From NCBI GenBank assembly GCA_030529505.1, contig JAUMWT010000004.1, positions 40,134 through 104,133 of the forward strand: a stretch of 64,000 nt of DNA, written 5' to 3'. The translations under genes were made by a program, and so were the position numbers. The notes beneath the pieces are model-generated. The model saw only the letters and a list, made by a program, of their open reading frames with translations, was not told the DNA's origin and searched no databases. The DNA is from Allobrachymonas sp. GTDB taxonomy: Bacteria; Pseudomonadota; Gammaproteobacteria; Burkholderiales; Burkholderiaceae_C. This document shows positions 27,564-59,206 of this stretch, one piece after another. Position 1 is the stretch's first letter; every line of letters starts with the position of its first letter.

Positions 27564-27690
27564 ACGCGGCAACTGAGGAGATTTGAAATAAAGGGTTGTT
27601 TATTTTTTGATTTATCTGCCTTGATTTTCAAGTGTGTTTGTTGAAATGAATTAAAATATGGGCGGAATCTAATTTTTCCAAGGAGGAGAA

Positions 27691-28164
27691 GTGAGCAAAG
27701 AAATCGAACGCAAATTTCTGGTGAAAGGTAGGGCATGGAAAGATCAAGCCGAAGGCGTGCTTTATCGGCAAGGGTATTTGAACAGCGCCAAAGAGCGAGT
27801 GGTGCGGGTGCGCACCATTGCCGAAAAAGCCTTCATTACCATCAAGGGTATTACCTCGGGCGTATCCCGGCTGGAGTTTGAATACGAGATACCGTTTGCC
27901 GATGCCAAGCACATGCTTGATGAGCTGGTGGAAAAGCCCATCATCGAAAAGAGAAGGTACAAGATCGAGCAAGACGGTTTGCTGTGGGAGATTGATGAGT
28001 TTCTGGGCGATAACGAGGGCCTGGTTGTTGCAGAGGTCGAGCTGAAAGACGAGCATCAGGCATTGAATTTGCCGAGCTGGATTGGAGAAGAGGTTTCGTC
28101 CGACCCGCGTTATTTCAACAACAACCTGGTGGCACACCCCTACACGAGATGGAGCAAGCGATGA
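27691..28164 (+). CDS. CYTH-domain triphosphate tunnel enzyme (inorganic triphosphatase type)
   Basis: Compact beta-tunnel protein that in close relatives (the Nitrosomonas NE1496 type) hydrolyses inorganic triphosphate. The 157-residue protein begins with the ExExK signature (EIERKFLV), then YRQGYLNS, VRVRT, ITIKG, SRLEFEYEI, EKRRYKI, WEIDEF, VVAEVEL and the C-terminal WIGEEVSSDPRYFNNNL, all matching that subfamily by memory. The start is GTG with a near-perfect AGGAGGAG seven bases upstream. The stop overlaps the next gene's ATG (ATGA). The upstream region is markedly AT-rich. Confidence 0.9.
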   Translation: MSKEIERKFLVKGRAWKDQAEGVLYRQGYLNSAKERVVRVRTIAEKAFITIKGITSGVSRLEFEYEIPFADAKHMLDELVEKPIIEKRRYKIEQDGLLWEIDEFLGDNEGLVVAEVELKDEHQALNLPSWIGEEVSSDPRYFNNNLVAHPYTRWSKR

Positions 28165-28805
28165 ACAGCATGGAAACGGCAATGCAAAAAAACCAAGAGC
28201 TGACACAGGCAGACGCACAGAAAATCACGCCCAGAGCAGAATTCAGGGTGTTTGGGCAGGGCATCATTGCCCAGTTGGAAGAAGCCATCTGGTCGGCCAG
28301 GGCCAGCCTTTATGCCATTCGCGACATGCCTGTTGAAACCTATTTCGTTTCTCGAAAAGCGAATGAGGCCAACATCAAGGTGCGCGATGAACTGCTGGAC
28401 ATCAAGTTCAAAACCGGCGAAACGGCAGAAGGCTTTGAGATTTTTCAGCCCTGTGGCAAGTTTGCTTTTCCCTTGAAAGCTGCAGATTTTGAACAGGTCA
28501 TGATGCAATTGGCTGTGGAGTTGCCGTGTCATCAATCGGCATGCAGTTTTTCTGATTTTTTGTCGATGGCAAAAAATCATCCCGATTTGCGTGCAGCGAA
28601 AGTTTCCAAAAAACGCTATGGCTTTTCGGTGGATGGCGTGATTTGCGAATATGCCGAGGTGTTGATCAATGGCGCAAAAATGGAAACCGCCTGTTGCGAA
28701 GGCGAGGATTGCGCCAAAATCCAATCTGTTATTGAATCGCTTGGCTTGGCCGGCATGAAAAACACGAGCTATATTCAGGCGATCAAACAGGTCGTGGGGT
28801 TTTAG
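28161..28805 (+). CDS. Probable second CYTH-like protein coupled to the triphosphatase
   Basis: I do not recognise a named family. The 214-residue protein (start at 28161, ATGA overlap with the preceding stop, GGAG six bases upstream) has a strand pattern like a divergent triphosphate tunnel fold: EFRVFG near the N-terminus, ETYFVSR, NIKVRDELLDIKFK, then near the C-terminus KKRYGFSVDGVICEYAEVLING and METACCEGED. The alternating Lys/Arg and Glu on strands resemble CYTH proteins, but the canonical ExExK is absent. The neighbours (CYTH enzyme before, anion transporter after) suggest phosphate or carboxylate handling; this is inference. Confidence 0.6.
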   Translation: MNSMETAMQKNQELTQADAQKITPRAEFRVFGQGIIAQLEEAIWSARASLYAIRDMPVETYFVSRKANEANIKVRDELLDIKFKTGETAEGFEIFQPCGKFAFPLKAADFEQVMMQLAVELPCHQSACSFSDFLSMAKNHPDLRAAKVSKKRYGFSVDGVICEYAEVLINGAKMETACCEGEDCAKIQSVIESLGLAGMKNTSYIQAIKQVVGF

Positions 28806-28830
28806 ATGATTGGGTAGATGAAGTGAAGCA

Positions 28831-28856
28831 GGCAGCCGCTGTTTCAAGCGGCTGCC
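28831..28856 (+). other. Perfect intercistronic hairpin before the DASS transporter gene
   Basis: GGCAGCCGCT and AGCGGCTGCC pair over 10 bp around a six-base loop, 34 bp before the transporter start. No T-run follows, so it is not a standard terminator; it may set relative expression or protect an mRNA end. Confidence 0.6.
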
Positions 28857-28889
28857 CGGAGCATGACTTTTGAATTGGAGAGGTGGCTG

Positions 28890-30470
28890 ATGGATCAAAA
28901 AATGGATCATCAAAAGGCTCAAGCCTTCGATCCGCTGGATATGAACAACTACTCTTTGGAGAAGTTCAAGGAGATCAAATCCGGCAAGATCATGCATTAC
29001 ATGAAGCTGATTGGTGTGCCGCTGGCAATATTCCTGTTCATGTTTTTCCATTTCCAGTGGTGCGGAAAAATCGACATGTTCGAGGCGCAGACCAAGGTGC
29101 CGCCAGCAGCTTGCTACAGCGCGCTGGGCATCTTTCTGGCCTCGCTGGTACTGTGGATCACCGAGGCCATTCCGAATTACCTCACCTCGCTGATCGTGAT
29201 CGTTGCGGTCATTCTCACCAAAATCATGAAAATGCGCCCCGCCTTTGCCATGCTGGGCGAGCCGGTCATGATTTTGAACATCGCCAGCTTCATTCTGGCC
29301 AGCGCCTTGGTTACAACCGGTTTGGCCAAACGCATTTCGCTGATGCTGGTGTTGCGCACCAAAAACCACCTCACCATGCTGTTTTTGTGTTTTGTTGCGC
29401 TCAATTTGCTGTTTGGCGCTTTCATCAGCGCCACATCGGCCAAAACGGCGCTGTTGCTGCCTTTGTTCATGGTGATTTCGGCCATTTATGGCGCCACCGG
29501 CGGCGCCAAGCGCAACAACGTCGGGCGCAATATGGTGTTGCTGAACTTGCTGGCCAATAATGTGTCGGCCAGTGCGTTTTTAACGGGGTCGGCTGCCAAC
29601 CTGCTGTCGGTTGCCATGCTTGAAAAAGCCGGTGCTCTGGTGACGTATCAGGACTGGTTCATCGCCTTGTTTCCGCTGGCGGTGATTCAATGTCTGTTTG
29701 CCTGGTGGAGTGGCACGAAATTCATTTTCCCGATCAGCCAGGAAGACGCCACGCCCAAACTTTCGGGCGGCATGGAGCGCTTGCAGCAAGAGTACGACAA
29801 GCTGGGGGCCATTTCAGCCAATGAGATCAAGGCAGGCATCGTCTTTTTGCTGGTGCTGTTTTTCTGGGCCACTTCCAAAATCACCGGCGTGCGCGCCGAA
29901 GTGGTGGCCTTGATTGGCGCCATTGTGGTGCTGTTGCCATCTTTTTCCAAGCTGCCGGCCTTGGGTGTGATGAAATGGAATGATGCCGATATCCCCTGGC
30001 ACATGCTGATTTTCAGCTTCGGCGCCTACGTGCTGGGCGGCATGATGGAGCAAACGGATATCGTGGGCATGTACATCCACAAACTGTTTGACGGCTTGGA
30101 GGTTGACCCCAACGGCATGGGCAAGCTGATCATATTTGCCGTGCTGAGTGCGGTGTTTGGCTTTACCACTTTGGTGAGCGAAAGCAAAACGGCGCGCACC
30201 TTGATTCTGTTTCCCATCATCATCGCCATTGCGCAGCGTTATGGCTGGGATTTGGTGGGCTTTTGCTTGCCCATGGCTTTCATGATCAACCAGGTGTACG
30301 TGCTGTATTTCAATTCCAAGCCGGCCAATATCAGTTATCTGACGGATCAGTATTCCACCTGGGATTCGTTCAAATACGGCATGATCCAGTTGGTGGCGAT
30401 TTGGCTGCTATTGATTGCGTGGACGCATTACGTCATGCCCCTGATGGGCTTCAACAGCCGTTTGTGGTGA
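28890..30470 (+). CDS. DASS/SLC13-family anion transporter with altered SNT motifs
   Basis: Polytopic secondary transporter, 526 residues, of the divalent anion:sodium symporter / CitT group; relatives move dicarboxylates, citrate, sulfate or phosphate. The two hairpin motifs are recognisable (FISATSAKTALLLPL; LVSESKTARTLILFP), but the Asn of the usual Ser-Asn-Thr tips is replaced in both (SAT and SES). About 12 hydrophobic segments are visible after a hydrophilic N-terminus of about 40 residues. The start at 28890 is chosen because GGAGAGG lies just upstream; an ATG at 28863 has a poorly placed site. It ends at a terminator and probably forms one operon with the two preceding genes. Confidence 0.88.
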   Translation: MDQKMDHQKAQAFDPLDMNNYSLEKFKEIKSGKIMHYMKLIGVPLAIFLFMFFHFQWCGKIDMFEAQTKVPPAACYSALGIFLASLVLWITEAIPNYLTSLIVIVAVILTKIMKMRPAFAMLGEPVMILNIASFILASALVTTGLAKRISLMLVLRTKNHLTMLFLCFVALNLLFGAFISATSAKTALLLPLFMVISAIYGATGGAKRNNVGRNMVLLNLLANNVSASAFLTGSAANLLSVAMLEKAGALVTYQDWFIALFPLAVIQCLFAWWSGTKFIFPISQEDATPKLSGGMERLQQEYDKLGAISANEIKAGIVFLLVLFFWATSKITGVRAEVVALIGAIVVLLPSFSKLPALGVMKWNDADIPWHMLIFSFGAYVLGGMMEQTDIVGMYIHKLFDGLEVDPNGMGKLIIFAVLSAVFGFTTLVSESKTARTLILFPIIIAIAQRYGWDLVGFCLPMAFMINQVYVLYFNSKPANISYLTDQYSTWDSFKYGMIQLVAIWLLLIAWTHYVMPLMGFNSRLW

Positions 30471-30488: not shown

Positions 30489-30518
30489 AATGCCCCTTGC
30501 TCGTTCAAGGGGCATTTT
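30489..30518. terminator. Terminator between the DASS gene and hpnE (convergent)
   Basis: AATGCCCCTTG (30489-30499) and CAAGGGGCATT (30506-30516) form a perfect 11-bp stem followed by Ts. It overlaps the last codons of hpnE on the other strand. Confidence 0.85.
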
Positions 30519-58525: not shown

Positions 58526-59206
58526 CTAGGGCTCAGATTCGCCCAGCAGCAGGCGGTAGCCGCGCTCGGCCTTGTTCTGTTTTTGGGGCGAAAGGGCAAA
58601 CGCGCGCTGCAAGGTTTGCACAGCGGCAAACAAGGCATCAGCATGGCCGTGTTTGAGTTCGATTTCAATTTCGCTCACGGGCAGGCTGCGGCCATTGGCT
58701 TCTATGCTGCCTGCGTCCAGCGCCAGTTCCAGCAAGCTGCCGTTGCAGGGCAATTGCCACAGCGTGCGCTCAATGCGCGTTTCAAACACGGGCTGCAAGC
58801 GGGGGGCAATGCCGGGGCTGCTCAAAAAGTCGCGCATGGGGGCGTGGATGATGCGATGCAGTTCCAGCGCTTGGGTGGCGGTGGCGTGTTCGATTTCAAC
58901 ACGGGTATGCAGGCCCAGGCTGGCGGGGTTGGCTGCGACAGCATCAGATGCATCTGATGCCCTTGCAGATACCATTGCTTCGGTCGGGGTGAACTTCAAG
59001 GTTTGCACCCAGCCATCGCCTTGCTGGCGCAGGCGCAAGCCCATATGCCGCTGGGCCAGTTCCAGCGTGGGCGTGTCGTAATAAATGCTGCGCAAGGCGT
59101 GCACTTGCGGGGCAGAAGCGGCAGGAAACAGTTGCGCCACCTGCCTGATAAAAACAGGCTGCTGATCGTCAGGCAGGCACAGGGTCCATTCGATTTCGGT
59201 CTGCAT
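58526..59206 (-). CDS. CYTH-domain protein (YgiF-like, no CHAD domain)
   Basis: Triphosphate tunnel fold protein of 226 residues. It has TEIEWTLCLP at the N-terminus, SIYYDTPTLELAQRHMGLRLRQQGDGWVQTLKFTP, TRVEIEH, FETRIERT, LELALDAGSI, EIEIELKHG and KAERGYRLL, the order seen in YgiF-type inorganic triphosphatases. The ExExK signature reads EIEWT, with Thr in place of Lys. A Ser/Asp/Ala-rich insert lies near residue 80. The C-terminal CHAD domain of longer homologues is absent. It is a third CYTH-fold protein in this window. Confidence 0.85.
   Translation of the reverse strand: MQTEIEWTLCLPDDQQPVFIRQVAQLFPAASAPQVHALRSIYYDTPTLELAQRHMGLRLRQQGDGWVQTLKFTPTEAMVSARASDASDAVAANPASLGLHTRVEIEHATATQALELHRIIHAPMRDFLSSPGIAPRLQPVFETRIERTLWQLPCNGSLLELALDAGSIEANGRSLPVSEIEIELKHGHADALFAAVQTLQRAFALSPQKQNKAERGYRLLLGESEP

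Follow-up and report, generated by a model that had tools for sequence, protein, structure and literature searches.

A conserved three-gene group joining a CYTH-type enzyme, an unnamed partner protein and a divergent DASS carrier, with a possible role in handling phosphate chains

A compact group of three plus-strand genes occupies positions 27691–30470 of a 64,000-nucleotide stretch of Allobrachymonas sp. DNA (contig JAUMWT010000004.1), referred to here as the window. Open reading frame analysis places a gene for a CYTH-domain protein first, a gene for an unnamed partner protein, here called MID, second, and a gene for an anion carrier of the DASS (SLC13-type) family third; found in very different bacteria, the group looks like a membrane system for handling phosphate chains. 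The CYTH gene (27691–28164) encodes 157 amino acids from a GTG start and is preceded by the ribosome-binding site AAGGAGG (27680–27686). The MID gene (28161–28805, 214 amino acids) overlaps the CYTH stop through the sequence ATGA; an alternative start lies at 28149, and the start at 28161 is favoured because a GGAG ribosome-binding site lies at 28151–28154. The DASS frame is open from 28863, and a gene spanning 28890–30470 is favoured because GGAGAGG at 28877–28883 is positioned for a start at 28890, which leaves a gap of 84 bp after MID. A terminator-like hairpin with 11 pairs and a T-rich tail (30489–30516, plus strand) closes the unit, and is the longest of the nine terminator-like sites in the window, against 5.0 in shuffled sequences. 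The frames, ribosome-binding sites and hairpin agree with the sequence-only reading of this DNA, which had described three plus-strand genes with an ATGA overlap, an 84-bp gap and a terminator. Upstream, Pfam identifies an EamA transporter and a rhodanese on the minus strand, and downstream an amine-oxidoreductase-type protein, also on the minus strand. The G+C fraction of the unit is 0.515 and that of the window 0.605, and only 1 of 123 sliding windows of the unit's size is as low or lower.

The first protein matches the Pfam CYTH family with 71.1 bits (cut-off 23.2). In an alignment of 30 sequences, Glu4, Glu6, Arg39, Arg41, Lys52, Glu62, Glu64, Lys87, Arg89, Glu115, and Glu117 are invariant and Lys8 is nearly so, so that the ExExK motif and the tunnel arginines, lysines, and glutamates are present; these are taken to have the role usually assigned to them in CYTH proteins. 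A PDB search at E ≤ 0.1 returns two matches, 3typ and 2fbl (E 3.4e-17 and 4.7e-17), both NE1496, or NeuTTM, of Nitrosomonas europaea, with which the protein aligns from residue 3 or 4 to residue 146. NeuTTM is a tripolyphosphate-hydrolysing enzyme for which Tyr28 and Lys52 have been put forward as the catalytic residues (PMC3440374), and NE1496 is named as a tripolyphosphatase in a paper otherwise unrelated to the unit (PMC13318637). Tyr29 and Lys52 of the window protein align with this proposed pair; Lys52 is invariant in the 30 sequences and Tyr29 varies. The protein is thus predicted to be an inorganic tripolyphosphatase of the NeuTTM type, which probably cuts tripolyphosphate or short phosphate chains. 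A link of NeuTTM to MID or DASS is absent from the passages cited and from the matches listed. A second CYTH-domain gene lies in the window about 28 kb from the unit, on the minus strand at 58556–59116 (G000:C95:98689-99249), with 71.4 bits in a frame of 230 amino acids.

The third protein matches Na_sulph_symp with 167.5 bits (cut-off 27) and falls below the cut-off of NCBIfam TIGR00785 (177.5 bits against 198.6); it therefore represents a divergent DASS clade and not that subfamily. Eleven matches, including NaCT, plant DiT, LaINDY, and VcINDY, show homology to DASS/SLC13 proteins over most of its length (E 4.5e-14 to 8.3e-6). In many DASS proteins, among them the Na+/carboxylate carriers of the SNT type, Ser-Asn-Thr (SNT) stands at the hairpin tips. 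The window protein instead has FISATSAKT at the first tip (29421–29447) and LVSESKTAR at the second (30171–30197). The motif set of DASS proteins from MID loci, hereafter module DASS, comprises 50 sequences after three wrong-frame open reading frames were dropped from 53, with identities to the window protein down to 34%, and the controls are 30 DASS proteins from a phylum sample of genomes. The first tip reads AT[ASTG]A[KR] and the second SK[TN]xR in all 50 module proteins, and neither motif is found in any of the 30 controls. At tip 1, SNT is present in 21 of 30 controls; at tip 2, 26 of 30 have SN[TVSAG]. Both figures stand against 0 of 50 module proteins. The charge contrast is weakened by arginine at tip 1 in 4 of the 30 controls; at tip 2, one control has arginine near the edge of the compared window and one is incomplete. 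Unlike NaCT, plant DiT, LaINDY, and VcINDY, module DASS proteins carry lysine or arginine at both tips, and the extra positive charge at the substrate site would fit a more highly charged anion.

The middle protein is the least familiar of the three. It matches no Pfam family at E ≤ 1, nor does the CYTH family match any of 10 MID members at that threshold, so that on Pfam evidence a plain CYTH protein is rejected. Alignments of 56 and 18 sequences nevertheless reveal a conserved charged core: in 18 divergent members, Glu27, Arg29, Arg75, Lys82, Pro104, Glu180, and Tyr204 are invariant, and Pro24, Phe31, Glu59, Glu93, Leu143, Lys150, and Glu163 are nearly invariant. Both alignments lack an ExExK motif, in place of which E27-x-R29 is found and the lysine is missing. 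When MID alignments are used as profiles against the PDB, 1yem, which is presumably a CYTH protein, ranks first and 2dc4 fourth among four matches with profile A1, and 1yem, 2een, and 2dc4 are the top three of eight with A4. With A6, over 177,635 PDB sequences and at E ≤ 10, the only matches are 2een, 1yem, and 2dc4, at weak E values of 0.015, 0.037, and 0.064 and confined to the C-terminal third of MID. A broad CYTH profile also matches 2een (E 0.0021) and 2dc4 (E 0.33). MID differs from these archaeal proteins of the CYTH superfamily in lacking ExExK, in having an N-terminal extension before Glu27, and in having no Pfam CYTH match.

Profile–profile alignment pairs MID with the broad CYTH profile over nearly its full length and matches Tyr61 with Tyr29, Lys73 with Arg39, Arg75 with Arg41, Lys82 with Lys52, Lys150 with Lys87, Arg152 with Arg89, and Glu163 with Glu100, while Glu27 falls on Lys8 and Glu180 on Glu121, off the motif glutamates. 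Five conserved columns share the same charge, against a mean of 1.1 and a maximum of 4 in 200 shuffles. Column-shuffled profiles reach the MID score against profile A5 in 1 of 100, 4 of 100, 2 of 200, and 2 of 60 trials, and against a merged CYTH profile in 0 of 60; against C6 they do so in 19 and 58 of 100 with the larger MID alignment, a result that goes against kinship, and in 1 of 60 with A6. The A6 profile scores 17.3–20.8 against CYTH profiles and 13.1–16.7 against four decoy families, and hhalign gives probabilities of 0.4–2%. MID is thus probably a remote relative of CYTH proteins. The earlier description of the middle protein as CYTH-like stands as far as this marginal profile similarity goes, but neither a Pfam CYTH match nor an ExExK motif accompanies it.

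The distribution of the unit was followed through the best 80 of at least 580 confirmed MID relatives (594 candidate stretches), so that the counts cover the nearer members of this family; because contig ends cut many of these loci short, the counts are lower bounds on presence. Partner genes were sought by tblastn with the window proteins within 3.5 kb of MID. CYTH is found at 42 of the 80 loci, DASS at 48, both at 36, and either at 54, and among the 53 loci flanked on each side by 3.5 kb or more the corresponding counts for CYTH, DASS, and both are 31, 36, and 27. The exact order CYTH–MID–DASS on one strand is kept at 26 of the 80 loci, whose MID proteins are 48–62% identical to that of the window. 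Among the named isolates that have it are Saezia sanguinis, Parasutterella muris, Turicimonas muris, Cardiobacterium valvarum, Citrobacter amalonaticus, and Edaphovirga cremea; the titles of metagenome-assembled genomes mix implausible organisms for similar proteins, and single phylum labels are not trusted here. A Citrobacter freundii plasmid carries, in series, a LysR gene, CYTH, a hypothetical protein, an SLC13 permease, and another hypothetical protein. The unit of Citrobacter amalonaticus found no match in the E. coli genomes searched. A search of phages was also without a match.

Sampled genomes indicate how unevenly the family is spread. Of the 9 genomes in the genus sample, 2 contain MID; the family sample has it in 5 of its 200 genomes and the phylum sample in 5 of its 299 (6 of 398 by profile), the window's own genome being counted each time. 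The second genome of the genus sample also holds all three genes in order, and in G494, the nearest relative with all three, the unit lies on the other side of the EamA gene than in the window, which fits mobility. Low G+C content and patchy distribution are likewise consistent with transfer of the genes as one unit. Counting the window's own genome, 4 of 200 family-sample genomes and 2 of 298 phylum-sample genomes hold the DASS clade (E ≤ 1e-40), all of them among those with MID; in the fifth MID genome of the family sample (G050), MID lies near a contig end. CYTH relatives are commoner, at 26 of 200 family-sample genomes (E ≤ 1e-25). Pairwise distances among 25 of the exact-order loci, L025 being left out, correlate with r 0.73 for CYTH and MID and 0.46 for CYTH and DASS. 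Chance or merely local grouping is ruled out by the recurrence across distant genomes together with the co-occurrence samples. The sequence-only reading would have been contradicted by close relatives that rarely keep the three genes together; the exact-order loci, those with both partners, and the genus-sample relative show that this is not the case.

At loci without CYTH, a DHH-DHHA2 protein (PF01368, PF02833) is frequent. Its best PDB match is the yeast exopolyphosphatase 2qb6 (E 7.5e-33), followed by inorganic pyrophosphatases, and the NCBIfam pyrophosphatase models that match it all score below their cut-offs. Across the 80 loci, CYTH is found at 49 (within 8.1 kb), DHH-DHHA2 at 22, both at none, and neither at nine, of which eight have contigs that end early on at least one side. 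At 10 of the 22 DHH loci no more than 250 bp separate the DHH and MID matches; no DHH-DHHA2 gene occurs in 40 control windows. A third hydrolase family is joined to MID by fusion, as genome G506 encodes a 512-amino-acid protein with a MID domain and a Ppx/GppA domain (E 1.5e-47) beside an adjoining CYTH gene, and a Cupriavidus plasmid holds a one-piece match to 98% of this fusion at 62.5% identity, with a same-strand CYTH match ahead of it; annotation of this plasmid gave no features. Three families of phosphate-chain hydrolases are thus associated with MID: CYTH, DHH-DHHA2, and Ppx/GppA. In a separate case, genome G606 (L240:817-2070), a GPP34 domain precedes a MID-like C-terminus (E 3.2e-14) beside two chromate-transporter genes.

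The wider surroundings of MID were surveyed by clustering the neighbours, scanning representatives with Pfam, and counting presence within 8 kb at the 80 loci. Five phosphate markers recur: the porin family Porin_O_P (14 loci), PiT (13), DUF47 (14), Na/Pi (7), and secreted pyrophosphatase (12); TctA is found at 14 loci and LysR at 40. At least one phosphate marker is present at 37 of the 80 loci and at 18 of the 39 with full flanks, and leaving out probes that came from the locus being scored alters neither count. The controls are the 40 windows mentioned above, of 16.6 kb each, from 14 Pseudomonadota genomes, among them G434 and G126, which carry MID elsewhere; no phosphate marker is found in any of the 40, a contrast that is somewhat flattered because MID loci supplied the probes and a single phylum the controls. 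LysR occurs in 5 of the 40. At least one of DASS, TctC, PiT, and Na/Pi accompanies MID at 71 of the 80 loci, and a hydrolase together with a carrier at 66. The context of these loci points to inorganic phosphoanhydrides.

Taken with the observed gene layout, conservation, alternation in the 80 loci, fusion, context enrichment, and distinct hairpin motifs, the unit may be read, with a probability of about 0.58, as a horizontally mobile module that couples the transport of a phosphate-type polyanion with the cytoplasmic handling of phosphoanhydrides, namely pyrophosphate, tripolyphosphate, and short polyphosphate. The substrate of the DASS-clade carrier and the direction of transport are putative: the anion moved by the carrier would be phosphate, pyrophosphate, or tripolyphosphate, cleavage of tripolyphosphate in the cytoplasm would fall to the CYTH enzyme, and MID may act on or bind the same phosphate chains as the partner of the hydrolase. 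In other lineages, a PPX1-like DHH-DHHA2 gene takes the place of CYTH, or MID is fused to Ppx/GppA beside CYTH; the carrier is exchanged for PiT with DUF47 or for carriers of the Na/Pi, tripartite, or further anion types, and phosphate-selective porins and secreted pyrophosphatases are added. MID would be the constant member around which hydrolase and carrier are exchanged. Of the earlier proposal that triphosphate turnover is linked to anion flux, the part that concerns phosphate chains gains from the context, alternation, and fusion in relatives, but phosphate transport by the DASS protein is conjectural and other carriers also appear beside MID.

Several points weigh against the mobile-module proposal, besides the limits already attached to the marker and tip contrasts. 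The tip motifs were defined after the module sequences had been seen, and all module DASS proteins are related to a single query. The DASS clade is missing from three of the five phylum-sample genomes that have MID, and MID and DASS distances correlate weakly (0.28 over the 25 loci). The alternation of CYTH and DHH-DHHA2 yields a Fisher p value of 7e-13, which overstates independence because hydrolase type follows lineages. The kinship of MID with CYTH proteins is marginal, and shuffled columns reach the MID score against its own partner CYTH in 17 and 21 of 100 trials and in 11 of 60. The 64-kb window contains no marker gene and no DHH gene, and Porin_O_P is unmatched in the window genome, which is 83.5% complete. 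At 20 of the 80 loci the 8 kb around MID include TctC, a component of tripartite tricarboxylate systems, and single MID loci stand beside SulP or chromate-type carriers; the anion therefore need not be phosphate everywhere.

This variety of carriers, which runs from DASS, TctC, and PiT with DUF47 to Na_Pi with PhoU, SulP with a cyclic-nucleotide-binding domain, and a chromate transporter, would also suit a somewhat unlikely role for MID as a ligand-sensing regulator rather than an enzyme, one that would read phosphate chains, or an anion related to them, and would gate the adjoining carrier, much as PhoU-type and SPX domains regulate other phosphate carriers. The replacement of ExE by E27-x-R29, which could weaken metal binding, is in line with such a role. 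MID is, however, tied to hydrolases through adjacency, alternation, and fusion, its distances follow those of CYTH (0.73) more than those of DASS (0.28), and at two loci (L018 and L019) it accompanies CYTH and a phosphoesterase while DASS is unmatched, the other neighbours being only partly scanned.

A different substrate is also conceivable, as the DASS and TctC families are classically carboxylate carriers; the unit would then carry a di- or tricarboxylate or a sulfate-type anion, while CYTH and MID would independently clear away tripolyphosphate or organic triphosphates. The frequency of TctC, and that of LysR near MID (40 of 80 loci against 5 of 40 control windows), agree with this quite unlikely alternative, but both tips lack SNT in all 50 module DASS proteins, and MID repeatedly has as neighbours genes for phosphate porins and carriers, secreted pyrophosphatases, and exopolyphosphatase-like proteins. 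It is very improbable that the three genes only hitchhike on mobile DNA and share no function: although the patchy distribution (5 of 200 family genomes), the low G+C content, and the Citrobacter freundii plasmid copy would fit, the exact order is kept in 26 loci with MID proteins as divergent as 48–62% identity, and alternation and fusion of hydrolases are unexpected of hitchhikers.

The phosphate-chain reading of the unit brings to mind the yeast VTC complex and Pho91, in which a triphosphate-tunnel protein and an SLC13-type carrier share a phosphate-chain theme. The likeness lies in the tunnel-type protein, the SLC13-type carrier, and that theme; in contrast to the yeast system, Pfam assigns neither an SPX nor a VTC domain to the window's three proteins, which are separate, and the window unit offers no evidence of polyphosphate synthesis. 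The likeness to yeast exopolyphosphatase (2qb6) concerns the DHH-DHHA2 protein that replaces CYTH near MID elsewhere, and no such protein is encoded in the window. A fuller claim, in which MID would be a new class of tunnel domain that processes or senses phosphate chains, the DASS clade would carry pyrophosphate, tripolyphosphate, or short polyphosphate in bacteria, and both together with CYTH would form a horizontally spread functional counterpart of the yeast pair, is unlikely in its entirety. CYTH, DASS, PPX1, and Ppx are known kinds of protein, and the MID family and the module appear to be undescribed in the literature searched. Among the matches listed from open-licence full-text literature, no description of a CYTH gene with a MID-type partner and a DASS gene was found, in keeping with the earlier remark that no description of the arrangement was known. 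A widespread operon that joins a CYTH-type enzyme, one unnamed protein family, and a distinct anion carrier provides a direct genetic handle, with the DASS clade as a candidate phosphate-chain carrier and MID as a candidate phosphate-chain domain linked to CYTH, DHH-DHHA2, and Ppx/GppA.

Several MID loci hold further genes. At L018 and L019, MID is found with two CYTH genes, and the phosphoesterase is calcineurin-like. In genome G036, a SulP carrier with STAS and cyclic-nucleotide-binding domains (L012:8233-10455) lies between MID and DASS. A DUF4010 membrane protein is found near MID at 14 of the 80 loci (L036:819-2150, L031, L051, and others), which are labelled mostly as Holophagaceae or other Acidobacteria, and seven of the 14 have a copy on each side of MID. 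A family of about 490 amino acids with one central hydrophobic stretch directly follows DASS in several lineages (L098:10307-11782, L033:10301-11815); it is present within 8 kb of MID at 12 of the 80 loci and matches no Pfam family above cut-off. Beside the unit in several relatives (L081:10349-13046, L054:10971-13822), two unknown families are followed by an inorganic pyrophosphatase, with signal-peptide-like starts. Signal-peptide-like starts are also seen near MID in two proteins with CYTH matches below cut-off (L097:8668-9492, E 0.0021; L096:12946-13824, E 0.015), which are possible secreted tunnel enzymes.

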